Assembly: GCA_034401795.1 (NCBI GenBank)
Contig: CM067360.1
Span: 55,043,768 to 55,107,767, forward strand
DNA: 64,000 nt
From: Chaetoderma sp. LZ-2023a
Taxonomy: Eukaryota > Mollusca > Caudofoveata > Chaetodermatida > Chaetodermatidae
Direction: 5' to 3'
In this document: piece after piece, positions 13,769 to 64,000 of the stretch
How positions within the stretch are numbered: position 1 is the first letter of the stretch
Layout of the letters: the number at the start of each line of letters is the position of its first letter
The notes under the pieces: model-generated
Seen by the model: the letters and a program-made list of their open reading frames with translations, nothing else
Database searches by the model: none
Told to the model about the DNA's origin: nothing
Made by a program: the position numbers and the translations under genes

Positions 13769-15669
13769 GTGCATCCGCAACGGGCCATCTCACGGACAAG
13801 AAATAATGATGCACAATTTAAAAAGTACAGAAACAGATTAAATCAGATAATCAGGATGGCAAAGATAAACTATTATCATTATAAATTTGAAGAGCAAAAG
13901 AACAATATAAAAGAAACATGGAAATTAATAAAAACACAATTGAATAAACAAAAAGGCAGTTCAGAAACATCCCGGTTCATTTATAATAATACAATTATAA
14001 CTGACAAAAAAGAAATTGCGGATAAATTTAATGAATACTTTATAAATATTGGGCCTAATTTGTCTAAAAAAATACAGACCAGTCCTGGAATAAATGTGCA
14101 AGACTATCTGACAGGCGACTACCAATCCTCAATGTTCCTGACCCCTACTGACAATGAAGAGATTTACAAAATCTTAATGAAAATTAACCCAACTAAGAGT
14201 GCCGGCATTGATAACTTTAAATGGAAAATCTTTAAAAACTGTGCTAGAGAAATACTAACTCCACTGAATCACATCTGCAATCTATCATTTTCACAGGGTA
14301 TATTTCCATCCCGAGTAAAAACTGCATGCGTAACACCTATATTCAAAGCTAAAGACCCATCTGATTTTACTAACTATAGGCCAGTCTCAGTACTTCCGCT
14401 TTTCTCTAAACTTCTGGAAAGATTATACTACAATAGAACTATAAAATATCTTAATAAAAACTCTATAATCTATGAATCCCAGTACGGCTTCAGAGAAAAA
14501 CACTCTCCCATGCTTGCCATTGTGGATATGCTGGAAAAAATAACCACATCCCTTGAGAGAAATGAACACACTCTAGGTGTATTCTTGGACCTCTCCAAAG
14601 CATTCGATACTATTGATCATGAAATATTACTTTAAAAACTAGCCCACTATGGAATTAGGGGCATTGCATTAAATTGGACATATAGCTATTTAACTAACAG
14701 AACACAATGTGTAAAATTCAGTGGGGCCATGTCAGGAGACAGGAAATTAGTCTGTGGTGTTCCACAAGGATCAATTCTTGGACCTCTGTTGTTTTTGCTA
14801 TACATGAATGACCTACCCAAAGCATGTAATCACCTCTCACTAATATTGTTTGCGGATGATACCAATGCCTTTTGTAGTCACAAGGGCATAGACACTGTAT
14901 ACAAGTATGTAAATAATGAAATGAAAAAATCATAGACTGGTTTAAAGTGAATAAATTATCTCTGAATGTCGATAAAACTAACTATATACTTTTCACAAAA
15001 TCTAAGAATTTAAAACAAATAGCTCTCCCCAAAATGCATGTAAATAATCAAGAAATTCACGAAGCACAATATGTCAAATTTCTCGGCGTCTATCTGGATA
15101 AAAGCTTAACCTGGGAGAAGCATATAGAAATAGTGAGATCCAAGGTAGCAAAGAACATAGGTATCATGCGCAGACTTGAGCCATATCTTCCCCCTAATAT
15201 CCTAAAAACTCTATATTGTACACTGATCCTTCCACAGATCACATATTGCAATGTAATATGGACTAACACGCATAAAACTAAACTAGCACATCTAAAATCA
15301 CTACAAAAGCAGGCAATCAAGTTATTCGCACAGCCAGCAGAGGGCCAGGATGTCTTTAAAACCGAAAAAATGCTAAAACTTGAAGACATTGGAGCTGTCC
15401 AACTATACACTATCTTAAGGGACTACCATAATGGCAATCTACCCTCCTCATTACCAAACCTTTTTAGGAACAACTCCGATATACACTCGCACAACACACG
15501 AACTAAGAATAACTTACACCAAACCTAATGAACAATGACAGCTACACAAAAACCATCTCACCAAGCAATACAACTTTGGAACAACACAGATATAAATATA
15601 CGCACACAAATTCTAACACAAAGCTCTTTTAAACAAAATATTAAAAAAATAATCTTAGAAAGATACTAA
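13769..15669 (+). pseudogene. LINE-1 reverse transcriptase, broken
   Basis: RT landmarks occur in order: [49 protein letters not shown], the catalytic FADD at 14,849-14,860, KLSLNVDKT, VKFLGVYLD and a C-terminal domain ending ILERY then stop near 15,669. There is an in-frame stop just after the DTIDHEILL block (about 14,633), a frame change near 14,930 and another near 15,528. Catalytic aspartates are otherwise retained, so the decay looks moderate. The protein would copy LINE RNA by target-primed reverse transcription. The start of the fragment is not a natural initiator. Confidence 0.85.
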
Positions 15670-39346: not shown

Positions 39347-40609
39347 TTAAGATAACGTACATTCACAGCAAAATGTTATTGCCCGTTCTTCGAGTATCCA
39401 GTGCTCCTCGTAGTGAGTCATGGGGGAGTCTGATCTGGGTACTGGAACGCATTGTCTCGGGTTCCTCCTAAGGACTTTCACGGTGAAGGCTTTAGCCCGA
39501 CAAGGAAACATTTTAAACCAGCATCTTGTGTTGAGACATAACACGCCACGGAGGTACCTCGGGTAGTAGTCCGAACCTAAATCTTTCCAGTAGACCCGCG
39601 AGTCACATTGCCATGGAAGCGAGTTTGCTTTTTCTGTCCTTCTCTGGCTTATTCTTCGCTTTGTCCGTGATCTTACTAAATCTGTTCTTGAGGGTGTGGC
39701 TGTGGATCGCACACGTTTAATAAATTGCTCATTACTGGGAAGATTCTGTTTATTATTATTGTCACTGAGATCCTTACGAAGTTTATATAAAGCACTATCC
39801 GGAAGATCTCGTCTGAAACCGTTCTCTACAAAGAATTCACGATGTTTAAATCCGTGAGGGTGCCGATAAGATGCTGCTTTATGCTGAAGCGGCCTCTGCA
39901 TCAACCCTAATATTCGTGATTTGTCCAGTTTCTGATACGGTTTACCTGTCGCCATATATCGCGGGTTAAATGCGTTTCCTAGTAACGCTCTAAGATGTAC
40001 GTGCGTCATGTGTGGACATGTAATTTGAATGTTTCTATTAACATTTTCTTGCTGCGTACTTGGTGTAGATGATTTCCATACTTCGTGCTTTGAAAACGTG
40101 GTGTGAGCCGATAGAGTTGTGCTAGGTGACGTTACCTTTGTCGCGGACGTTGATACAGATGTGGCCATACTGGAAGTCGGGTTGCCACGAGTTGGGACGA
40201 TTAGCTTCCGACCATGAGATGTCTCGTTGGCGGGCGTCACGACCTTGTCTTGCGATGGCCGGCTTGTTAACGTCAAATAGCTGGCACTCTCTTCTAAGGA
40301 ACTAGATCTCATTAAACAATCCTTGGATTTTTCATCGCACCGGGAACTGGTTGCATTTTTTATAGCCTTTGTCTGATGATGATTACTTCCAGTTAGGTTC
40401 TGTCCTGATAAAGCTGTGCTATCGTTAACGTGTGTAATCCGACCGCTATCTCGCGTGATGCGGCTATCGACAGTTGAGTTCGTCTCGTCGACCATGCGCC
40501 TTCTTAGTTGGGCACATTCACATACACACAATATACATATGAAATATAGAACAATTAATACCGTGCAGAGACTGTTCTGTCTCTGATCGGTCACATGTGG
40601 TAGCAGCAT
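39347..40609 (-). CDS. Trunk/PTTH-like secreted cystine-knot protein
   Basis: Single open frame of 420 residues. Residues 15-33 are strongly hydrophobic after a short polar N-terminus, a signal peptide or signal anchor. Residues 40-310 are low-complexity, with a Ser/Thr-rich part (about 140-186) and several N-glycosylation sequons. RTKRR at 315-319 is a furin-type site. The C-terminal 90 residues hold eight cysteines, with WKDLGSDYYPRYLR, CWFKMFPC, AKAFTVKVLRR and a terminal FCCEC. This pattern matches the mature domain of Trunk and prothoracicotropic hormone, the ligands of the Torso receptor tyrosine kinase in insects; in a mollusc the receptor and role are unknown. ATG at 40,609 has A at -3, and a CACGTG E-box lies just upstream (40,614-40,619). 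No intron is visible. It is the only convincing host gene here; a recent retrocopy is possible but no poly(A) tract or decay is seen. Confidence 0.8.
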   Translation of the reverse strand: MLLPHVTDQRQNSLCTVLIVLYFICILCVCECAQLRRRMVDETNSTVDSRITRDSGRITHVNDSTALSGQNLTGSNHHQTKAIKNATSSRCDEKSKDCLMRSSSLEESASYLTLTSRPSQDKVVTPANETSHGRKLIVPTRGNPTSSMATSVSTSATKVTSPSTTLSAHTTFSKHEVWKSSTPSTQQENVNRNIQITCPHMTHVHLRALLGNAFNPRYMATGKPYQKLDKSRILGLMQRPLQHKAASYRHPHGFKHREFFVENGFRRDLPDSALYKLRKDLSDNNNKQNLPSNEQFIKRVRSTATPSRTDLVRSRTKRRISQRRTEKANSLPWQCDSRVYWKDLGSDYYPRYLRGVLCLNTRCWFKMFPCRAKAFTVKVLRRNPRQCVPVPRSDSPMTHYEEHWILEERAITFCCECTLS

Positions 40610-41300
40610 CTTTCACGTGACATAAGCATATAACGGTCATTGATAAAACATAGCCTGCCGTCAGTGACGCAATCCAAACAATATCATCACGAATATATAT
40701 TTTAAATCATTTTACTTTACGTAGCGTATATGACCAAGATTTGTTGGATTAAACCGTTCACTGTTCAGTTCTTATCGCAGAAACCATTTAAATTAAATGT
40801 TTACAGACTAAATCACTTTGAATTCGTTAATATTTTTTTTAAATCGCTCCCAAATTAAAATGTACGTGTTTACTCTATTGCGTGTTGTAAGTAAATGGCG
40901 TATTCACGTATGGTGTGGCCACGAGTGAATATTGTCAGCGTGATTATTCATTCAGTTATGGCCGACTTGTTGATCCCATTACACCAATCTGATCAACATC
41001 ACAGCAAGTGTCACTAATGACACACGGGCGTTCACACTTCAATTTCATTCATGATGTGCGCGATACTATAGTCATGCACATGCTCTGAATATTTCAACAA
41101 CAGTTCGACTGAAATTTGAGACAGTGAAATTTCAACCAAATTGTCTTCAAAATAATCCTCACGACTAGATTGTATAATAGATAACAGATAGGGGGCCTAC
41201 GATATATAGAATGAAATTGTTTATCTCGTTTTTATTTCTGGTCGCCATTTTTATAAGATTACATCTTTTGATCCAGGCAGAGCAAAAACGAAAAATCACG
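40610..41300. other. upstream region of the Trunk-like gene
   Basis: No clear TATA box was recognised near the gene. A palindrome-only MITE remnant lies at about 41,085-41,155 (tgaatatttcaacaacagtt...caaccaaattgtcttcaaaa). Confidence 0.4.
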
Positions 41301-43589: not shown

Positions 43590-43832
43590 ATGAAACTTTA
43601 ACTCTATATCGACGAAGCCGGTCAAATCCAGCCTCTGTAGTGGTCTAGAAGAATGTCCATTTGCAGGCCAGGAGAAGACTATTTTTGAAAATTTACCACT
43701 GGAATAACTGGCTCGATAACCGAGCCAGTCATGCCAATGGAAAATTAAAAAAAGTAATCTTCTCTTGACCTGCAAATGGACATTCAATAAGGAAATATTT
43801 TTATCTTTTCAACAAATTTAGTCATTAAAGGG
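43590..43832. mobile_element. piggyBac-type MITE, near-complete
   Basis: atcgacgaagccggtcaaat, the cctctgtagtggtctagaag box, the tgtccatttgcaggcca arm, hairpin core, ggcctgcaaatggaca-type second arm and cattaaagggttat at the right end. Confidence 0.75.
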
Positions 43833-43989
43833 TTATATTAATTGAGCAGCTTTATTGTGGTCACAGGCATACAACCTATTTCTTGGACGAGTAGAGATGC
43901 GACATTTGGCACAGAGATTGTCAGTGTAGGACTAGTAGATTTTTAAAATACAATCATTAGCACCTATAAAAATCGTTCCACGGTGGATG

Positions 43990-44639: not shown

Positions 44640-47600
44640 TAAATATTCCATTTATTGCGTAAAAAGCATACAGTATGGTGTCTGCATACAGCACATACAA
44701 TATATACAATAAAAAACATAAAATACACACGCATTAACAATATATACACAATATAACAGTCAGCATATCTACAAAACAGCAGGATAGGTGGAGAGATACA
44801 ATGTATTAAGTTATGGTCACAGAGGCCTATCCGAATGCATGGGATCAATAATTGTAGAATGTTGTTTTAGCACGGATGCAAGAACAAAGGGTAAAACCAG
44901 TTCAGAGATTTCTGTATCGCCGTTATTGCAGGACATGAGGAATACGAACTTCTCATCATCAATTAATGATGGGAAGTCGCAAAAGGAGCCGAGTGCAATG
45001 CAAAGGTTCTGTCTTTCATAATCATAAGCAGAACAATGCAAGATAAAGTGCTTCTCGTCTTCAATACACTCGGATACGCACATCTTGCATATCCTGCGTT
45101 CAACTGGTACCTTTTGGTGTCTTCCGAGTTCAATCACCAGGCTGTGTGCACTAACTCTAAGTTTCGTGAAATCCTTACGAATTAAGAGATTTCAAGAATT
45201 AATCAGATAGTTTTCCATCGCAAAGTTAAGCTTAAACAATCCATAAGTGTGTAATTTAGCATTTATGTTTGGAAGGTTATCTTTCCAAACGTCTACATAT
45301 TTGGACTGCATTAAAAGTTTTAATTTCTTAACATCAAATTCCGTGTGACCAACAACCGTGTTATCTCACGTATAGTCAAAACCAAAATAGGTACACAGTT
45401 CGCTGATGAAGAAAGGCCAATTACAATTACTCGATATATTAGAATAGGATTCACAATACGCTTTGCGGACTATGGAAGTATCATCTAGTGCACGCAGCCT
45501 GTGCCAATATTTCATTGCATGCGCCAAACAGGATATAAGAAGCGTATGATGACCCAATTCGCCGCGGACTGCATCATTGGTTGCATTTCTACGAACACCA
45601 AGTATGTATTTAAAAAATTTCATAACAACCCTTTCTGCTGGTAAATTGTCGCAGATTGTTTTAAAGCCATGAGTCCTAAGACCTTTAAGAAAATATGGAC
45701 CCCAAACTTCGCATCCGTACATTAAAATAGGGGAAATCAATCGCTTGAAGAGAACAAGTCACGTAAATATGTTGGTCCTAACGTTAAATTGCCTTAGTTT
45801 GAAAATGGCTTTAGATGCTTGCTCGCAAAGGCGTTCGCAAGCTGTTTTAAAGTTACCAGAAGCAACAAATGCTATACCCGGGTAGCAATAAGTCTGGACT
45901 ATTTCAATAATGTTACCGTTGTATGTAAACAGATAATTATTTAATAGTTTACCACCTTTATTGAAAATGAGTACCTTAGTTTTTGCAAAATTAACCACCA
46001 GGCCCCATTTATCACAATATGCGCTTAGATTATTGAGTGCAGTTTGGAGCCCGGTATGTGATTTAGACAGTAATATGTCAGCGTACATGAGGCAATTGGT
46101 AGTTATGTTATCTAGTATGACTGGGTCACACTGCTGAGTCAAAATGTTGGGCAGGTCACGAACATACATGTTAAATAAAAGTGGGCTTAATACACAACCC
46201 TGTTTAAGCCCAACACTAGACGGGAAAGGATTACTGTGGTAATTTTGAAGTTTTATGCAATATGAAACTCCGGAATACATGCTCCGTAGCGTATTTAAAA
46301 AGTTACCACCTATGCCGGATAATAGTAATTTATATAAGAGAGCGTTCCTGGAGACAGAGTCAAATGCAGATTTAAAATCCACGAAACAGCAAAAAAATAA
46401 ATATTGTTTAGATGATTTGGCATACCTTTCAATCAAGGTCTTTAAAGCATACATATGATCAGCGGCGCGGCTGTTCTTTTTAAATCCAATTTGTGAATCT
46501 GGTAGCAATTTATGCGCAGTAGAAAATGGTAGAGTCTACTATATAAAATACTACAGAACAGTTTGCATAAATTGCTGCCGACTGCAATACCTCGATAGTT
46601 ACCAGCAACGTGTTTATCTCCCTTTTTGTGTAATGGTGTTAAAAAGTTGCAACGCCCGGCCTCAGGGAAAGCACCATTAATAAGTATATTGTTAAAAATC
46701 CTACATATAATAGGAGTCAGTTGGTGCTGTCCGACTTTTAGCTTTTCATTCGAAATGAAGTCAGGGCCTGAGGACTTGCCATTTTTCAGCTTTGAGATTG
46801 ACGCAATGACTTCATTTACAGTAATTGATTTGTTTAGTTCATTAAAAATTGTGCTCTTATTGGATGCAAGGTAGTCATCCATAAAACTGTGGAATTCACT
46901 ATTTATTAACATGTTGGTGTTGGTAAGTTGGGTGAAATGTGAGGTCCATTCTGCCATTGGGACATGATTTTGAACAACACTTCCCGATCCTTTAAGCTTA
47001 TTAAACAATTTCCAGAAAGATTGAGGGTTACGATCATGCAATGTTTCAAGCTGATTCAAAGTACCTTGCTGAAATTGAATTTTGTTACGATTTATAAGCT
47101 TCTTGTATCTAGAACGAGTTGATCGGAGTTCTTGAAGAAGCTGTGGACGGAATGGGTTAACACAGAGTTTGCTGCTAATCAATTTGAGCTTTTTCTTCAG
47201 CTCAATACAGTCTGGTCCGAACCATTTATTGGTCTTATTCTTGTTTGGCTTAGCAGTTAAGCAGTTAGCCTGCCCAACGACTTACGTTTAACTCCGGCGA
47301 GTTTCGCAGTGGTAATATATAATTCCGTAAGAGAGTTGACGGCCAAGTCACTGGTAGTATCATGGGCCAGGTCAATACAAGCAAGTTTTTGGATATGAGA
47401 TTTGGTCGTCGAATTTCTAGCCCATATGCAAATTTGATGTCATCGCCAGGCGACCACCTGAACGCAGGAATAAATGTAGTGGATGAAACCTCGTCCGCAG
47501 GCTTTAAAATGCCAGTTAAAATGATACAGAATAACATGCAGTGAATATAATATGTGTTAAGTTGGTGCACATGAAAGTATTTTGTATGCCACATGAATGC

Positions 47601-48418
47601 TGGGGAAGTCAGCATGTAGTCAATTGCGCTGGGCTTGCCCCTGTGACCATAACATGTACATTGACCCAGGTAGTCGCCCACAGTCCTACCATTAAGGATC
47701 CGGAGGCCAGCGGATCTGCAAAGCTGAAGGAGTTTCTTTCCGTGACTATCTACTGGCGCGAGGTCACGATTGTTTCTGAGAGTATGAACATCTCTTAGGT
47801 TATTCAAGTCTGTCAATAGCTCAAATGCTAGAGGGACGCCAGCATCAAAACAGTAGTATGCTTCTAGCTCTGTGCTGGCATTACAATCGCCGCAAACCAA
47901 ACAGCTGCCCAATTTTGAATATCTAGCCAAGTCATTCTCTAAGGTATCAAAGATGTCATCACTGGCAGAGGGTGATGCCGGACTGACGTACACCACCGCA
48001 ATGTAGACATCTTCATTTTTATGGCAGAAGTGTTCACAAAACTTTAACCAAGTAATTTCGGTAGATGTAAATGGCAACGCAGATTATACTTAATACAGAT
48101 TGACATGCCTCCATAGTTCTTCGTTGTATTGCGATATCTAGGGCGGGTGTTAGCCGGGAATGTATAATAGCCAGATAGTGACAGTGAATCAGCCTTACTA
48201 CAGTGTGTTTCGGTCAAGCAAATGATGTCCATTCTAGAAAGTGACGCGCAAAGATCAGCATCAGACAATTTGCAGACCCGCTGACCACCAACACGTTTAA
48301 AAGCGCCATCTATGTTCCAATAGGCTAAGGAAACATTATTAAGATATTTCATTATAACAGGGATATTGTGACCAAGATCAAGAATGAATTTGTAAGCTAG
48401 CAATGTGTATAAAATCAA
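44640..48418 (-). pseudogene. LINE-2 ORF2: endonuclease and reverse transcriptase, broken
   Basis: Minus-strand order: APE-type endonuclease (48,355-47,340; WNIDGAFKR, ICLTETHC, GDCNAS, SAIDYML), then RT (47,180-45,380; GKSSGPDFI, GNYRGIAV, GFKKNSRAADH, FVDFKSAFDSVS, LKQGCVLSPLLF), then a C-terminal zinc-knuckle-like part (CKMC...IEDEKHFILHC, near 45,060). The catalytic box reads MYAD-ILLS, so the usual YADD has lost an aspartate. Frame changes occur near 48,060 and 46,500, with further stops near 47,263, 45,755 and 45,365. The 3' end is about 44,640, where AATAAA appears on the minus strand. The clade is uncertain; the GNYRGIA motif is unlike CR1. Confidence 0.85.
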
Positions 48419-49110: not shown

Positions 49111-49305
49111 TATTGGCCGATTGCACACCTATAGATCAGTTAAGCCAGAGTTACCCCTTGAGCGGCGGCTCACGTAAGCACGGCTTAGGACGGGCTTGAG
49201 TTGAGATCAACTGAGAAGGACTTCGCTTGCTGACCGGCAAACTGAGCTTGGATTGCGTGAACTCAGCTCAACCCCGACATCGTGTCTGGTTCAATCATTT
49301 TCGCA

Positions 49306-50014
49306 ATGGCAGGTAAAGCGAAAAGTCCCAATTTTACCGAGATAGAAAAAAGTACTATATTTGAATTAGTAGAAACGAGAAAGGAAATTCTAGAATCTAA
49401 ACTGAATGACGGAAGAAATGTCTGTAAGAAAAATACTGAATGGAGCAAACTTTGTGAAGAATTTAATTGTCGTCTTGGAGTGAATCAAAGATCGGTTTCA
49501 CAATTGAAATCTCTATGGCAAAACCTTGAAGCTAGGACCAAGGCTGCTGTAGCCAAAGGAAGCCTGGAGACGAAGAAGACTGCAGGTGGACCGCCGGAAA
49601 AAAAATTGGACACATTTTCAAGCAGCATCTCGGAAATGCTTCTGCAGCAAATAAACAGTTTGCAAAATCCCTTTGATGATGACGTAAGCTTGCCTGGGGA
49701 TGAAGAAGATGCAATTGCTGACATACATGAGGTAGGTAATGATGACTGCAACAGAAGCAGCAGCAGCACAACCACCACCACTACCACCACCATCAACACC
49801 ACCATAGCCACCAACACCGCCGCCACCACCACCAACAGCAACAAGAGCAACAGCAATAACAGTAGTAGCAACAACACCAACACCACCACCGCCAACAACA
49901 CTAATACTAACACCAACACCAACACAGCCATCAACAACAACAGCAACAACAAAAATAACAGTAGCGGCAGCAGTAGTACCAACACCACTAACACCATGGT
50001 CCACCACCACCACC

Positions 50015-50059
<45 letters not shown>

Positions 50060-50061
50060 AA
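49306..50061 (+). CDS. Harbinger Myb/SANT-like DNA-binding protein
   Basis: The N-terminal 85 residues from MAGKAKSPNFT form a Myb/SANT-like domain of the kind found in the second Harbinger protein (EEFNCRLGVNQRSVSQLK, LWQNLEARTKAAVAKG, TAGGPPEKK). In that family it binds the transposase and the element ends. An acidic patch follows, then a long Thr/Asn/Ser, His and Gln homopolymer region of about 110 residues that ends in a stop after (CAA)n. I chose 49,306 rather than the upstream ATG at 49,282 because the relic at 17,960 starts at the equivalent codon. A second coding patch at 50,550-50,771, preceded by tattttcag, encodes a basic end (RRDQVKSRLLEM, LEHERKMR) typical of these proteins, so an intron probably joins the two. 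The repeat region may have expanded after insertion. Confidence 0.75.
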
Positions 50062-50549
50062 CAACAGCAACAACAACAGCAATTGGAGCAATGGTAGTGA
50101 TAAGAGACTGCCTTCTGGAATTACCGATGATGAAAATGACAACAATCTTGATATAAAAACAAGTGCGATGCGCCGACCGACCACCAGACCGACCGACCGA
50201 CCGACCGACCAATCAATCGTCATACTAACTTATACTAGTTGTTGCCCGCAACTAAAAACAATACCACTATAACCATGACAATACGAACAGATGGGTGAGC
50301 TAACCTGTAAATACGTCCGATGAATCTGGCATGGAACTAATAGGCCTAAGTGTTGTTTATCGAGAAACAATGTTGTGATAAGATGTTTGTGTCTATGACA
50401 GCAACAAATTTCAGCAACATTATTTCGGAAGCTGCTTAAAATGCATAATGTGTATCTTGGTGTTTTGACATTTTATGGATATGTCGTCAACATCATCTAA
50501 ATAACAATACATATATTATTAAATAGTAATTTTATGTTAATATTTTCAG
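50062..50549 (+). other. probable intron of the Harbinger Myb-like gene
   Basis: Lies between the simple-repeat end of the first coding block and a 3' splice-site-like tattttcag at 50,541-50,549. The donor is not certain. It includes a (GACC)n-type run at about 50,177-50,208. Confidence 0.4.
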
Positions 50550-50754
50550 AACAACGCTAATCCATCAGCTTCATCGGCGCAGCAAGACGGTTCAACAGCA
50601 TCATCTTCACTGATATCGTCATTACCGTCAGCTAGTACGCGCCCTACTTGTAGCACTGATCTGCGACGTGACAAAGATAAACGGTCGTCTCCACAAGGAC
50701 GTCGGGACCAGGTGAAATCTAGACTGCTAGAAATGGTAACATTGGAACATGAGA

Positions 50755-50842
50755 GAAAAATGCGTATATAAGACCTAAAAATATATACGCATTTTTCAAA
50801 ACCAATATGTCCTAAAAGAGGACATATTGGTTTTGAAAAATG
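50755..50842. repeat. two overlapping perfect hairpins
   Basis: Hairpin 1: 50,755-50,770 pairs exactly with 50,782-50,797 (16 bp, 11-base loop). Hairpin 2: 50,790-50,813 pairs exactly with 50,819-50,842 (24 bp, 5-base loop). They share the gcatttttc segment, and aaaaatg stands at both outer edges. The insertion interrupts the 3' end of the Myb-like coding region after EHERKMR. Confidence 0.95.
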
Positions 50843-50849
50843 TAAATTG

Positions 50850-51430
50850 GAACGTGATGTAGGCCTATGTTTAGAGCGCAGTGATAGTGGTGCCTGTGCA
50901 GCTGACAGGGAGCCAAATAAAATGAGCAATAATCATAATTTGTGGCAGCCATTCTGACTCTGATTAATTAAGACTATATTATTTATTAATTTGTTTAAAT
51001 CCTTATACGCATCCACATATGTTACTGTAATTTAAGAATACATACAATCAAATCATGTTGTTTTGAAAAGAATTTAACAAATGTTGTTTCATATGACTAA
51101 ATTGGTACTCTCTTGACTATTTTGCAACTAATTTGATTTAAAAGCTCTTTTTCTTAGGCTGCAACGTCTTCTATGCCAAATTAATTTAAAAAAAATATTA
51201 CACATTTAAAAGATATTGCTTACATCATATGCAATTATTACATGTATCGATCAGTCCAAACGCATTATGGTGGATTGTATTTGGTGATGGTTGTGGAGGT
51301 AGTGTGGGAGGGCATAGCGTAGCAGGGATGGAAATCTAGATAAGGGGTGTGTGGTAGCGTGGTGGGGGGGGGACTGTGTGGGTGTGTATAAGATATGGTA
51401 GTTTTATTTACCCTACATTATCCCTCACGA
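50850..51430. other. interval between the convergent Harbinger genes
   Basis: No coding region recognised. A CTTTCCA-family palindrome remnant lies at about 51,115-51,190 (ttttgcaactaatttgattt...), and G-rich gtggtgggggg lies near 51,360. Confidence 0.5.
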
Positions 51431-51440
51431 AAGTTTCAAA

Positions 51441-52444
51441 TCAACATTGCTCTCCTTGGTTTGCAATTTGCAATGCGGGTACCGGCACATCTGCTGGCCC
51501 AGCATCATCTCCATTAGGCAAAGGGACACCTGCTTCTCTTGAGATGTTGTGAAGAACGGAACAGGCGACGATAACTGTTAGGTTGGTCTTAAGCTTTAGT
51601 CTTAGTTGATATCGTAGGCACGGGAATCGACGTTTCCAGATACCAAATGTATTTTCGATGTTCACCCTTGCATTACTCAATGCATAGTTATAACGGCGCT
51701 CTTCCCTGTTGGTACAGTTAAGAAGAGGTGTCATGAGATATTGTCTGAGAGGATAACCATTATCACCAACCAAGATGCCATCAATTTCCCTTCTTTCAAG
51801 TCGCGCACAAATATTACTGTTTTCAAATATCCTGCTATCATGAGTACTACATGGACATCTGGCAACGACGTTTGTAAAATTATAATTATTGTCGCAGATT
51901 GCTTGCACATTTATGTAAAAGTAACCTTTCCGATTTCTGAACAATTCTGCAGTGTTCCTATCTGGTGACTGTATAGGAATGTGAGTACAGTCTATTGCTC
52001 CAATGATACCAGGTATTCTGCTTTGCAGCATAAAACTCATTTGCACCTCTCGTAACGTTGCTCGGTGGGAAATCGTACATAGCGTTTATACAGTGATGCT
52101 AGAGCACAAGAAACACGCTTTACTATACGTGAAACAGTACTTTGGTCCACACCAAATAGATCACCGTCAACTCGTAAAAAACAACCAGTTGTGTAAAAAC
52201 GTAACGTAATTAAAATTTGGTTAAGTGGCGAAATAGTTGACACTTTATTTTGCTTTCTTTCTAACATATTTTGAACGAGTTCCAGCATCATCAACACAGC
52301 ATCCTTATTTAGTCTGAATCTGTACAGAAATTCATCATCAGAATAAAATGTAATAGCGTTCAATCGATCTCTAATCAGTTGTTCCCGCCTAATTAATCTC
52401 TCAACAACATCAATTTGGTCTACTAGATTTAAATACTCCGCCAT
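51441..52444 (-). pseudogene. Harbinger DDE transposase (HARBI1-like), one frameshift
   Basis: The N-terminal block (52,444-52,037) has a helix-turn-helix-like part and FGVDQSTVSRIVKRV. The C-terminal block (52,046-51,441) has the DDE_Tnp_4 core: D in GAIDCTHI, D in VGDNGYPL and E in VNIENTFGIWKRR (residues about 19, 95 and 131 of that block), followed by SVLHNISRE. All three acidic residues are present. The two blocks overlap by ten bases in different frames around 52,040, so a single small indel breaks an otherwise full-length protein of about 335 residues. The enzyme would cut and paste elements bearing the ends at 49,114 and 52,598. Confidence 0.85.
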
Positions 52445-52621
52445 TTTTGGCGCTGATCTTAGCAGGTTCAGATTTTCCAGCGATTTGAGCGGAGTTTACG
52501 TAAGCCAAGCTGGTATGCAAGCGGACAAAAAGTATGAGCTGTGCGTAAGCCCGGGATCACGTTGAGTACAGCTTGAGCTATAGGTGCGCAATCGGCCATA
52601 TATGTCTATCTTATGCGCATT

Positions 52622-52862
52622 TTAACCCTTTAATGTCTAAATTTGGTAGAGAAACTCAAAACATTTCCTTAATGAACGTTAATTTGTAGATCAAGAGAAG
52701 ACTACCTCCAAAAAACCCACCACAGGAATGGCTGGCTCGGCTACTGAGCCAGTCATTTCTGTGGTAAATTACCAAAACCAGCCCTCTCTTGGTCTGCACA
52801 AGGGCATTTCTCAAGACCACTACAGAGGCGGTATTTGGCCGGCTGCGTCATGATAGGGTTAA
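52622..52862. mobile_element. piggyBac-type MITE, complete reference copy
   Basis: TTAA-ccctttaatg at 52,622 and catgataggg-TTAA ending 52,862, with a central hairpin (accacaggaatggctggctc / gagccagtcatttctgtggt) and longer imperfect arms. A TTAA target and CCC/GGG termini define piggyBac-type elements. It sits 20-odd bases from the right end of the Harbinger element. Confidence 0.85.
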
Positions 52863-52884: not shown

Positions 52885-55666
52885 TCATTTTCGTAAGGAG
52901 TGATAGGCCCGCATCATAGATTTGAACAATGATGGCATATTAGGTTCACTATTACTACTTGGTGCAGGTCGCGTATGGTTATGAGGAGGGTGAGCCGCTA
53001 ATTTGTCACTGTTTTGTCTCTGTGCACGACCGTGGAATTGTATCGTGGCAGGAGCACATTTGGCACGAGCAAAGTTAGTGCTGCGCTGATTTGTCTGATT
53101 AGTTTGATCACGCTGAATGCGGGAGTGCCTAGTGTCATTTGTCTGGTACTCATTATAAGCCGTTAGACCGAGTATGGGATTTACTACGCGTTTAAAGTTT
53201 CTGATCAGACGAGTCAAACCCGCCTTTGTGAGGTGGACCCCGTCCCTCACTATAACTCCTTATCCATGACGTGTAGTGAATCATGGGAAACTGCTGGTAC
53301 GTCAAGTGTGTCCAGGAATTTGTTGAACAGTGTCTCCTTCCGGTTGTAATTCTCAGACAATGATACGGATTCAAGAGATCGCGGTAACGCATGTACCATA
53401 CTGATAACAGAATCAGGCATACGCCGATTGCACAGCGACAACAGGTCTTAGGTTAGCTTTTCACAAACGTCCACAGATTGATTGGCGATGCTGTTGTCAG
53501 CCACTTGGAAAACGACACACTTGGCCTTGATGACGTTGTTGTTACTTACAAAGTTCAAAGCGCCATGCATGTTTTTCCTGATAGGATAACTGTAAGACAT
53601 TTTTTGTACCTGTATATTTTATCACTTTGAATGCGACTCACATGAGAATTACCGACGATGAGAAGGTCACACTGATAGTCATTGTTCGACGTTGGCTTAC
53701 CGCGTGGAGTGTTTGCATGTTCCTGATCATTATTTGTCGAAATGGCTTCGAACCTGTTAGGGTGTTGGAAGCTGGACGAGGCACTAGCGGATAGGATGTG
53801 AGACTGACGATCAGCTTTAGCATGATAGGTGTCCACAGTAACAATATTGTTAGTCTCATGACGACCTTGCTGCGTGATGCTTGAGAGTTCAGACTTAAGC
53901 CCACCCATGTCAGAGTGGCAATTTGAGCCATCTTTTTCTACTTTGGACATTTGAACAGGGATTTCAGTGACAGTTTGTTTTATATTGTCCACTGCTTTCG
54001 AGAGTAAACTATTGACGCCACTAGCTTTCTCACATAAGACATGTGATTATACATTTTTTTGTCAAAGCGGTGTGCAGCTCCTCTGTCAGCTTAAGTTTAT
54101 CGGTTTGCAAGGCTGTGCACACCGCTTCACAGTTGGCTAATGAGGACTTTAATTGTTGGCAACATTTGCAAGCATCTGCATTATTACGCGCCTGAGAATT
54201 AGCCAAGGACAATAATGATGCTTCAAGAGTGTGGATGCGTTCACATTTAGATTTAAGTTGGTGTTGTAATTCACGATTTTCTTGTTTTACACAAACGAGT
54301 TCTTTATTAGACAGTTCTGTCAGTAGACATTCATTTTCCTGGGATGATCGCAGAAGTTTATTTATCAGCTTATCTTCCATGTCACGAATGACAGACTGAA
54401 AGTTGCTGGCTTGTTTCAGTTGCTGCCCAGTTTCCATTAAGGTGGACAGCAACAGATTATCCTTTATTGAATCGACGCTAGGCAGTTTATGTGCGTCGTT
54501 AGTGTCACATTGTGTTGAAACGCTTGCGAACACTGGATGTTTGACAGTTCGTTCTTCAGATGACTCGATGGAACATATCGTCTGCATACCATTTTTGCTT
54601 AGGTCCACTTGTGAGTGTGAGCCTGTGTCGCATACTGTATGAGGGCTCTGAGTTTTGCTCAGATGGTACTGCCGTACATTCAAGACACTGAAATCTCCGG
54701 CTTTTACGCGAAAAGAAGAGATAAAGCTGATAAACAGGTAACGGTGTGCAATTGTGATGCATTTTGTGCTTACAGATGCAACATGTGATCATATCCTTGT
54801 TGTTCGGCATTGTACAAAAACGGCATGTTAACGATGTAGATGGGGAACTTTGCGATCTTAATGGCGACATTGCTGACGGCAAACTATCACGGGAATTTTC
54901 CTGATTGGTTGGCGCCGTGGATGATAATAAAGTGTATAGCGTAGCCCCATGATTGGCTAACTTGTCGGCCGCCTCGTTGCCAATGTCCCCCGTGTGTCCC
55001 TTTACGTGAGACCAGTTGATATCGACATTACTGACTAGATCGAATAGACGGATCCAAAGATCGGAGTTTTTTCTGCCTGTCAACCCTTCTTCCACGCAGT
55101 ACTAAACCAGTTATTCCGTTTATTAAGTATACGCTGTCGGATTTAATACATAATTGTTTAATGTTCGAACTGACCGCTTGTTCAAGCGCTATTATTGCGC
55201 CGTAAAGCTCGGCACGGTTATTTGTTGGTTGAATGCCATCTACGTGTAACGGGGCTCCAATGTTGTTAGGGTCATTTTCGCCCCAGAAAACACCGTACCC
55301 ACCCCTCGCACCACTCTCTCCATTGTTCAGGCAAGCGCCATCAACGTACACGGTGTGGATATTAGTGGTCAAATCACGTTTAGACAGGTGGGGTGGTTGG
55401 CAGGTTGGCGGGATATTTAAGTCATGCGAGTTACAATCTGTTGTAAGTTTAGCTGGTAAACTGTCCCTGGCGAACACCAAGATGTCTTCGTGCGTTATTT
55501 CAGCTTCGTTCATGAAGCGGACAGCATCTTCTAACGAATAGAAACTTTGATATTTGGCACCCGCACATTTGTCGACAGAGTCTTTGCAGGCTAACCAGTC
55601 ATTAAAAATACCGGGCTTACAACCCTTACCAATGGCGGAGTACTTAGTTTTCTTGTTGTCCCCCAT
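52885..55666 (-). pseudogene. RNase HI - PHD - coiled coil - SGNH hydrolase, LINE ORF1-like, broken
   Basis: Minus-strand order: (1) RNase H hybrid-binding domain from MGDNKKTKYSAIGKG through GAKYQSFYSLEDAVRFMN; (2) RNase HI core with VYVDGA, NNRAELYGAI, IKSDSVYLI and HVKGHTGDIGNEAADKLA, so all catalytic acids and the histidine are present; (3) PHD finger, CRFC...CCIC...HHNC...CLEC (about 54.8-54.7 kb); (4) coiled coil rich in Glu/Lys/Leu (about 54.6-54.05 kb); (5) SGNH/GDSL hydrolase with block I VGNSHVSRI and C-terminal RDGVHLTKAG, followed by a basic Gln/Arg/Pro-rich tail ending RAYHSLRK. At least four frame changes break it. PHD plus esterase is a known ORF1 composition in CR1-like LINEs, in which the esterase is of unknown role. 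The RNase H at the N-terminus is the unusual part. It could be the ORF1 of LINE-2, or of another element. Confidence 0.75.
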
Positions 55667-61289: not shown

Positions 61290-64000
61290 GCTTCCTCAGG
61301 TCCATACTTGACTTGATGTACCGAGTCCTGCTTTCTTGAGGTCACCTCGTAGCACGCTTAGAAGATTTATGCAATGACGTCGTCTCCTGGCTTTGTATTT
61401 GCTGGCTCCGAGTCGGACGAATTCCAAGGCTCTCTGTGCTGGTGTCTCTTCTGGCATCCTTAGCACATGGCCAAACATGGACCATCTTTGCTGGGCAATT
61501 TTTACAGACAGCGGCGACGTATTACACATCTTGTATAGTGCGTCTTTGGAAATTATGCTGTCTGGCCATCGGTGTCCAGTGGTGGTGCGTAGGTGTTTGC
61601 GGTGGCAGGCATCGAGTTTGTCTAAGGCTGCCTTTTGAGCTGTCTAGCTGTTACAGTTATATAGCATCAAGGATACGCAGGTTGCATTGTATAAACGTAG
61701 CCTCTTTATCAAGGGCATCTTTGATCTACGAATCCATAGCTTCCAGAAGGACTGGAAAGCTATGTTCCCCATGACACAGCGTGCAGAAATGTCAGCAGTA
61801 CTGCAAAGCAGTGAGCCCATGATTTTACTTTTCCTCCATGATTCGCCGCCACGAAGTGGGTCGTCATTTTCTATAGCTGCATGCTTTGTCGATAGGTATG
61901 TGTTGGTGAACTCTGTTTTGGATTCATTCATAAAGAGATTCTCAATTTTTAGTTTGCTTGCAGCTATTGGGAGTAGTTCGTCAAGGGGCTTCTTTTCCTC
62001 GTCTATGAAGTCCACATCATCAGGCATGCCCAGTATTGGTCTTGTGGAACTTCCCCACACAGATTTCAATACGGCAGCAAGGTAGCAGGTGAAAAGCATT
62101 GGCGATAGACCCCCCCCCCCCTCCTGTTAGGAGCCAATTGATGTCTCAAACTGCACATACTTCACTGACTTGACTCATACTCTCATCTTGGTGTCTGCAA
62201 GTAGTAGTCTCACTAGTCGTCGCCCATCTTCATTGCAACTGGCCTGGCGTAGTACATCTAGGATCTGTGAGCATTTAATTGTGTCGAAGGCTCGTGACAT
62301 GGCAATGCCCATTTTGTGGAAGTCCCAGTATTTGCACATGACTACCAACACAAGCATGTGTTGAGTCCATACAATGTCTGCGCAGCTGCGTCCACGTTTG
62401 AAACCACTTTGACATGATCCGGTGAAGTAATCGATCTTGTCTCGGATGCGTCATAGAGTAACATTGGATAGGATTTTCCGTATGCTGTTAAGGAGTACAA
62501 TGGGCCGCAGATTGGCTGGGGCCCAGGTGGCTTCTTGGGTGTGGGTAGTGCGATAAGGGTACCTTGGCCTACAGCGTCGATGGGAAGGTGGTGCATAAAA
62601 GCTGAATTGATTAGGTGCGTGATCAGTTTTGAGATAATGTCACTTGCATATTTGAATAGTTCATTGCTCATGCCATCAGGTCCAGATGCACGTCCATTTT
62701 TCAGGTCTTTAAGTGCCTTCTCAATTTCTGCTGTTTTAATTGGTGTTAGTAATGGCCTGGGGTCTCCTGAGAACGGATGCAAGGGCTCATCATCGTTGTC
62801 AGTGAACTTCACCGTGAACCATTCTCGGATCGCCTCGGCTTTTCCCTGGTCAGTCCCGATAAAGTGTCCTTCAGAGTTGTGTACAATGAGTGGTGGTGTG
62901 TAGTCAGTAACTCTCAGGGGTCAGGTTGTCCGAAACATTTTGTGACAGTCATCCGTGGCAGTGATTTCATCTGCTAGGGAGTCTGCCTGTTGAATAGCAA
63001 GATCTTTTAAGCGTTCGCTAATGTGTGCAGAATAATATTGCGCTCCCGGTGTAGTTTGGTGCAGTGTTCACATTGGCCACTTTGATAGATGTGCAGCCAT
63101 AATGCTTTCTGCTCTGCTGACAGTTTTATTATTAGAGGGTCGTCAGTATCCCTAGTTTGGTTGTTTTTAAGAACACCTATGGTGCTGGGAGCGGATGATT
63201 CCATAGATTTCAGTATTTTGGTTGGGGCTTCGTTTGGATCGGAGCTGACATCGATGTTAGCTATCTGGTCCCCGATGGCTTTTTTGTATGGCATTTGAGT
63301 GTCAGTGTCGCTGATGAGCCTGGGTAGGTTATAGGTGTTTATATATTAGGTAGAGATCGTTCATTTGAAGGCATGTAATGACTACCTTATGGTCAGAATT
63401 GAGGTCTGTGCCTCCATACGAACGAGCGTTCCGGAGTAAGGGTTTTGCTTCTGTCTCGCATAGTCTATTTGGTTGAAGACAGCTGTTGTAGCCTAAGAAC
63501 CTTTTGGGGCTTTGCGATCAGTAATGCGTCCAGCCCATGTTGTCCGGTGATGGCATGAGTGTTTGAAAGTCGTATTTGTGACAAATAGGCCATTGGAACT
63601 AAGAAATGCAACCAGTGCATCTCCATTGATGTTGCGTGTGCCCTCTCCATAGGATCCCATGCATAAGCCAAGTCCTGAACTTTTGTCCGCAGTTCCGAGT
63701 TTACCCAGCTTGGAGTTGAAATCTCCACACACGAACAGTTGCCATCTAGCTGGAATTGTAATTGCGGAGCTCAGTTCTGCATAGAAGGAATCTAATAGTG
63801 CTGGATTCTCTTTGGCTTTTTTGGGTAGTTGGGCCGTAAACGTTGAGGATTCGACACTTAGTGGTGGTGTGTTTTCGCGTAAATGACATACGAGAATTAT
63901 AAACATAACGGTGGTCATTGAATGTCCATTTGAATGTTTTCAAAAATATGAATCTCTTGGCATCCAAATCGCCAAATCGACATGCCTTAAGCAGTAGAGG
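61290..64000 (-). pseudogene. LINE-3 (RTE-like), endonuclease and RT, broken, runs off the window
   Basis: Minus-strand order: partial endonuclease from the right edge (RILNVYGPT; FVCGDFNSKLG near 63,735; TTFKHSCHHRTTW near 63,550), a linker (63,294-63,007), RT (GRASGPDGMSNELF near 62,690; RAFDTIKCSQILDVLRQ near 62,290; PDDVDFIDEEKKPLDELL near 62,010; NESKTEFTNTYLS) and a C-terminal QQRWSMFGHVLRMPEETPAQRAL (about 61,490). Two catalytic sites are altered: the motif A aspartate reads alanine (GIAMSRAFD), and the YADD box reads MPDD. Several frame changes separate the pieces. A 3' relic of the same family is at 27,268-27,545. RTE affinity is inferred from the FGHVLRM end and is moderate. Confidence 0.8.

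Follow-up and report, generated by a model that had tools for sequence, protein, structure and literature searches.

The window analysed here, a stretch of 64,000 nucleotides of DNA from Chaetoderma sp. LZ-2023a, carries on its minus strand what is, judged from its sequence, a dead non-LTR retrotransposon copy, its ORF1 starting with a captured animal-type RNase H1. Comparisons with other copies in the genome show that this fusion is present in multiple copies and multiple families and is linked to an ORF2 encoding an endonuclease (EN) and a reverse transcriptase (RT). Within the open-access literature searched, the element appears to be a LINE with a new ORF1 architecture; ORF1 proteins with a PHD finger or an esterase, and RNase H in ORF2, have already been described. 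As an explanation of the whole, we consider it probable that an RNase H directed at RNA:DNA hybrids is delivered to the insertion site by the ORF1 protein (ORF1p), a delivery that would enable synthesis of the second strand without host RNase H.

Domain structure of the window element

The window element and the repeats lying within it comprise the following features.

52885-55666, minus strand: LINE ORF1, frame-broken, with hybrid-binding domain (HBD), RNase HI, PHD, coiled coil and SGNH (ATG at 55666, last stop at 52885)
55514-55645, minus strand: HBD, the N-terminal domain of RNase H1 (Pfam Cauli_VI, 2.2e-12)
55067-55357, minus strand: N-terminal part of RNase HI with catalytic D, E and D (Pfam RNase_H, 2.2e-14)
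54943-55071, minus strand: C-terminal part of RNase HI, shifted to the adjoining frame and carrying the catalytic H and D (Pfam RNase_H, 1.1e-9)
54676-54825, minus strand: PHD-like C4HC3 zinc finger (pattern match; Pfam PHD, 0.013, below the cut-off)
54174-54299, minus strand: coiled coil, best 42-residue heptad window (heptad periodicity against shuffles)
53142-53672, minus strand: SGNH esterase-like domain in broken frames, GNSH ... ADN ... DGVH (nucleotide match to copy L017 over 53672-53142)
52623-52862, no strand assigned: MITE-like foldback repeat separating ORF1 from ORF2, foreign to the LINE (75.8% copy at 43598-43835, partial copies elsewhere in the window)
49114-52598, minus strand: Harbinger/PIF DNA transposon, likewise lying between the two ORFs and foreign to the LINE (25-nt TIRs, 92%; DDE_Tnp_4, 6e-35)
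44817-48355, minus strand: LINE ORF2, frame-broken, with endonuclease, reverse transcriptase and Cys-rich C terminus (Exo_endo_phos, 7e-7; RVT_1, 4.1e-24)

The preliminary description of this DNA had given the minus-strand order HBD, RNase HI, PHD, coiled coil and SGNH, and this order, with a PHD-like finger in the PHD position, was confirmed by Pfam, the C4HC3 pattern, the heptad test and the match to the sister copy L017; the start ATG at 55666 and the end at 52885 agreed with those given there. Its claim that the RNase H catalytic residues are intact despite the broken frame also held, all five being present because D-E-D lies in one frame and H-D in the adjoining one. The ORF1 pieces were collinear with L017, with 64-68% nucleotide identity, and the window HBD was recovered by a genome-wide HBD search (7.0e-10). 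When the HBD-linker-RNase H region of L017 was used as the query, the best solved structure was human RNASEH1 (1.7e-33). Heptad periodicity at 54299-54174 was higher than in shuffled sequence, 1 of 200 protein shuffles reaching the same level. The SGNH query from L017 matched the window at 53238-53594 and 52888-53253 (1.2e-31), and the window SGNH pieces themselves matched no Pfam model at 0.1. The best PDB match of an SGNH profile built from five other copies was the ORF1 esterase of the LINE ZfL2-1 (4c1b, 6e-8).

Downstream, the window sequence from 48355 to 45079 was collinear with the ORF2 of L017 (68.6% nucleotide identity), in which the corresponding ORF1 and ORF2 come one after the other. 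We read the window element as one LINE that was apparently split afterwards by other transposons. The transposase of the Harbinger element at 49114-52598 is encoded on the minus strand, a plus-strand ORF within it (49261-50061) ends in runs of Asn, Thr, His and Gln, and its flanks suggest a 3-bp ATA duplication. Elsewhere in the window, ORF2 pieces picked up fragments of other RT elements at 13814-14818 and 62597-62740, and a 421-aa open frame on the minus strand at 39347-40612 with a weak match to Noggin (0.001, below the cut-off) may be a host cystine-knot gene.

Copies and families in the genome

At least 116 HBD places were found in the 2.44-Gb genome (150 of 183 candidates scored), one of them being the host RNASEH1. 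From these places, 20 loci selected for long open frames were fetched. An open 912-aa ORF1 with the order HBD-RNase HI-coiled coil-SGNH was present in seven of them, four of which (L009, L010, L012 and L014) also had an open 1198-aa EN-RT ORF2. In L009, Pfam detected HBD (3e-14) and RNase_H (7e-27) in ORF1, with GDSL lipase (2.8e-7, 31.7 bits) just under its cut-off of 32.9, as well as Exo_endo_phos (6e-11) and RVT_1 (8e-33) in ORF2. Both L009 and the window thus encode RT and an AP-type endonuclease in ORF2, as do APE-type non-LTR elements with two ORFs. No RNase_H was detected by Pfam in the ORF2 of L009 or in the scanned ORF2 pieces of L017, the window, L021 and L026.

An 8.2-kb unit with both ends in common was shared by 10 of the 20 loci, including L009, at 95-99.8% identity, and the young L009 family has an ATTTC-type 3' tail, which is a common 3' end for that family only. 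Among 12 copies, no convincing target-site duplication was found flush with the ends. The coiled coil before the esterase was positive in the heptad test in five proteins, L017 and L029 sharing one segment. The preliminary description had named as support multi-copy homologues with the same domain order inside a single LINE family having a 3' end of its own; the copies and the domain order were found, whereas a common 3' end was found only for the young family, which lacks PHD. The opposite outcome named there, that the RNase H part and the PHD-SGNH part belong to unrelated elements, was not seen: in L009 a single open frame of 912 aa spans RNase H and SGNH without interruption, and L029 carries RNase H-PHD-coiled coil-SGNH within 811 aa of one open frame.

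Two observations concern single young copies. L025 (C6:72106870-72116860) contains an in-frame minisatellite with SRSESVKG-like units in ORF1, resulting in a 2127-aa open frame. L010, L011 and L015 have a common sequence beyond the 3' tail, as if they lay beside the same repeat, which could reflect a target preference or a longer 3' end.

The PHD-like finger was found in the window subfamily (L017, L029, L117 and others) and in the subfamilies of L008/L018, L021, L024 and L026, and was absent from the young 912-aa family (L009). Pfam PHD gave 7.4e-5, 9.6e-5, 2.3e-4 and 2.5e-3 across the copies L017, L018, L021 and L026, all below the cut-off (best 23.1 of 24 bits). The C4HC3 pattern was also present in the window, L008, L024, L029 and L117, and in L024 and L008 the finger was identified by the pattern alone. 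That five subfamilies, the window's among them, combine HBD with a PHD-like finger would fit a role in targeting instead of second-strand synthesis, with HBD-RNase HI steering the element to host R-loops in transcribed chromatin, perhaps together with PHD, and opening or clearing them; the common 3' flank in three young copies could likewise mean target choice. However, the young family has spread though it is without PHD, and we consider targeting to R-loops unlikely. Delivery of RNase H for second-strand synthesis is the explanation that we prefer.

Linkage of HBD, RNase H, SGNH and RT

For the genome-wide linkage analysis, 150 RNase H rows were scored (of 7587 candidates), a second class of mostly 384 bp was set aside, and 76 or 74 rows were used. 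With the 76-row set, 63 of the 116 HBD places were followed on the same strand by RNase H at a distance of up to 3 kb. With the 74-row set, 81 of the 116 had an RNase H or an SGNH match and 32 had both. Of the 34 HBD places without neighbouring RNase H or SGNH, 19 were read and appeared LINE-like, some by HBD alone; one further place, at C11:167.37 Mb, is the host gene. When the search started from SGNH (116 places, merged from 128), 57 places were preceded on the same strand by HBD or RNase H at no more than 4.5 kb, and none of the 116 had either within 4.5 kb on the opposite strand. Of 55,300 RT candidates, 67 places were scored; 19 of these had HBD, RNase H or SGNH within 12 kb upstream, and the other 48 had no match to any of the three within that distance. 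Such RT places may belong to 5'-truncated LINEs, for which this is expected, or to LINEs with another ORF1.

Selection on HBD and RNase H

The catalytic residues D-E-D-H-D were complete in 24 of the 27 distinct copies with RNase H in one frame, these counts being 28 of 31 loci minus four duplicate fetches. A residue was missing in L024 (D to N), L026 (D to G) and L114 (D to A), and among the broken copies, catalytic changes were found in L002/L031 (E to G) and in L037 and L038 (D to N). Seven comparisons between divergent copies gave pN of 0.23-0.43 against pS of 0.75-0.83 in HBD-RNase H, and dN/dS for L018/L008 was 0.12-0.13 in the same region, with pS of 0.61-0.70. With synonymous sites near saturation and protein sites constrained, these comparisons point firmly to long purifying selection on HBD-RNase H. 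In young copies, dN/dS in HBD-RNase H was 0.44-0.65, suggesting that recent constraint is weak or is masked by mutations after insertion. For L017/L029, dN/dS was 0.21 in RNase H and 0.66 in the PHD-coiled coil part.

These data bear on the possibility that HBD-RNase HI is a nucleic-acid binding module only, which packages element RNA or RNA:DNA and in which catalysis is not selected. According to the available part of one study, none of the esterase-type ORF1 proteins in Repbase has a structured RNA-binding domain (PMC3905857), so that binding is an open gap, and a catalytic residue has been lost in some copies. Against this, D-E-D-H-D persists in the 24 one-frame copies although the subfamilies are only 32-61% identical over HBD-RNase H, and the active-site D, E, D and H are among the 56 invariant columns of the 293 in a seven-row alignment. 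We regard a purely binding module as unlikely and retain the reading in which ORF1p brings a working RNase H to the insertion site.

Among six copies compared in both regions, the window copy and L017 were mutually nearest in RT (76%) and in HBD-RNase H (61%), and the agreement between the two sets of distances was partial (r 0.62; Mantel 50/720). The farthest copy was L009 in RT and L024 in HBD-RNase H, a swap that may be due either to unequal rates or to ORF1 exchange.

Origin of the ORF1 RNase H

The host RNASEH1 was located at C11:167.33-167.37 Mb by a motif pattern with one match in the genome, the reversed-pattern control giving none. Its HBD match ends after 19 of 44 positions and the catalytic exons lie tens of kb off on the same strand; we read it as a separate, apparently multi-exon gene. 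The host exons were about equally similar to L017 (40/75) and to human RNASEH1 (41/77). As outgroups, 33 prokaryote loci from a genome contig collection and contig C19 of the present genome provided 34 rows, of which 12 (near-duplicates and weak rows) were dropped before the first tree; three further long-branch rows and six ORF2-type rows were dropped before the second. In the second tree, which comprised 33 rows, the 12 ORF1 RNase H domains formed one clade (95/88), and human and host RNASEH1, the only two RNASEH1 sequences in that tree and the host one partial, formed a second clade (98/93). The two clades together were set apart from the 19 prokaryote rows (97/89). A bacterial origin of the ORF1 RNase H was rejected, the prokaryote RNase HI rows falling outside the ORF1-RNASEH1 group. 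The strongest RNase H match of the genome was C19:479305-480703 (L049), a bacterial-looking rnhA on a 539-kb contig whose adjoining frames also look bacterial and which is probably from a bacterial symbiont or contaminant. In a viral contig collection, a window piece used as the query found no match, and the alignment used as the query found 24 loci.

The tree and the linkage data also bear on whether a host RNASEH1 retrocopy came by chance to lie beside an unrelated LINE, or whether a nested insertion mimics a fusion. The sequence is of RNase H1 type with an HBD, and its closest solved structure is the human enzyme. However, the 912-aa frame is uninterrupted in seven of the 20 loci, albeit loci chosen for long frames, and several families carry the fusion; of the 116 SGNH places, 57 are preceded by HBD or RNase H on the same strand and none on the opposite one; and the host gene lies elsewhere, with the ORF1 clade separate from it. 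The uninterrupted frames, the host gene location and the tree rule out the retrocopy, to which, together with nested insertion, we assign next to no probability. The suspicion that the RNase H part matches merely the host RNASEH1 was thus not borne out: the host gene is at another locus and reads as split by introns, and its sequence falls outside the clade that the ORF1 copies form. These results indicate that the RNase H of the ORF1 proteins arose in one clade distinct from the host gene.

The genome also contains a second RNase H class, with frames of up to 1311 aa (e.g. C13:41712672 and C11:111719353), which is probably situated at the end of ORF2 of other LINEs. Given this presumed location, an RNase H of the ORF2 type, as in the I and R1 groups, could have been relocated to ORF1. 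By contrast, such domains from six loci scored 16.7-21.0 bits with the ORF1 profile, against 36-94 bits for the 34 prokaryote RNase HI rows, and formed a distant clade in an earlier tree (100/100). Furthermore, none of 76 second-class rows (two of them also in the 76-row linkage set) had an HBD within 3 kb upstream. The profile scores, the tree and the lack of an upstream HBD led us to reject a move from ORF2, which we hold to be extremely improbable. A farther-reaching reading is a single ancient capture of an animal-type RNase H1 by a group of LINEs into ORF1, not ORF2, which would have turned the packaging protein itself into the hybrid-directed RNase H; in this way the elements would have gained independence from host RNase H in second-strand synthesis and a structured grip on nucleic acids that is otherwise missing from esterase-type ORF1 proteins. 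We judge the chances of this scenario to be about even.

Relation to known elements and proposed mechanism

In the available text on the esterase-type (Type IV) ORF1 represented by zebrafish ZfL2-1 ORF1p (PMC3905857), a coiled coil is followed by an SGNH esterase on the C-terminal side, with an EN-RT ORF2 downstream, as in the element described here. Unlike that type, the present ORF1 begins with an HBD and RNase HI, to which five subfamilies add a PHD-like finger; with HBD and RNase HI present, it departs from the description of esterase-type ORF1 as having no structured nucleic-acid binding domain. PHD-type ORF1 proteins of CR1/L2 lineages have a PHD finger within ORF1 (PMC4120745), to which the PHD-like finger described here may correspond. 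In the accessible portion of that survey, type IVB combines a zinc finger/leucine zipper with the esterase, the esterase type is restricted to two vertebrate groups, and Table 1 includes neither RNase H nor the combination of PHD with esterase. LINE-encoded RNase H is known from the I factor (PMC2881922) and from the aRNH elements of plants and oomycetes (PMC5348765), in which, as far as the available parts of these papers describe it, RNase H follows RT in ORF2, whereas here an RNASEH1-type enzyme with HBD stands at the start of ORF1. Eukaryotic RNASEH1 shares HBD, linker and RNase HI with D-E-D-H-D, and is the best PDB match over all three; the present domains differ in lacking introns, in belonging to a mobile element, in being joined to a coiled coil and an esterase, and in having their own clade. 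No ORF1 with RNase H or HBD was found in the accessible text of the open-access literature searched.

In the mechanism that we propose, ORF1p multimers would use the coiled coil to cover the element RNA, which would place many copies of RNase HI in each particle. RNase H1 cleaves RNA only within hybrids, and the packaged single-stranded element RNA would for this reason be spared. At the target site, during cDNA synthesis by ORF2p, the HBD would grip the new RNA:cDNA hybrid and RNase HI would strip the RNA from it; with the RNA removed by ORF1p, second-strand synthesis would need neither RNase H2 nor RNase H1 of the host. Of the two element proteins, ORF1p is the abundant one, which may be why the RNase H is in ORF1. 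PHD (chromatin) and the esterase (membrane) would serve localisation, as proposed for other ORF1 proteins. The HBD may also provide the nucleic-acid binding that is reportedly missing from esterase-type ORF1 proteins in the available part of the ZfL2-1 study (PMC3905857).

RNA clearance from the first cDNA strand in LINEs without RNase H is only partly understood. According to the available text of one paper, such LINEs rely on host RNase H2 in human cells, where human L1 borrows this enzyme and added RNase H1 rescues partly (PMC6068448), and the fact that LINEs have acquired RNase H repeatedly is called enigmatic in the accessible part of another (PMC5348765). The present element could complete its own insertion without borrowing host RNase H. 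A natural fusion of RNase H1 with a packaging protein is a direct test case of whether RNase H must act in cis with RT or whether delivery in the particle is enough, and since this genome contains young copies whose frames are open, the question is testable by domain removal.
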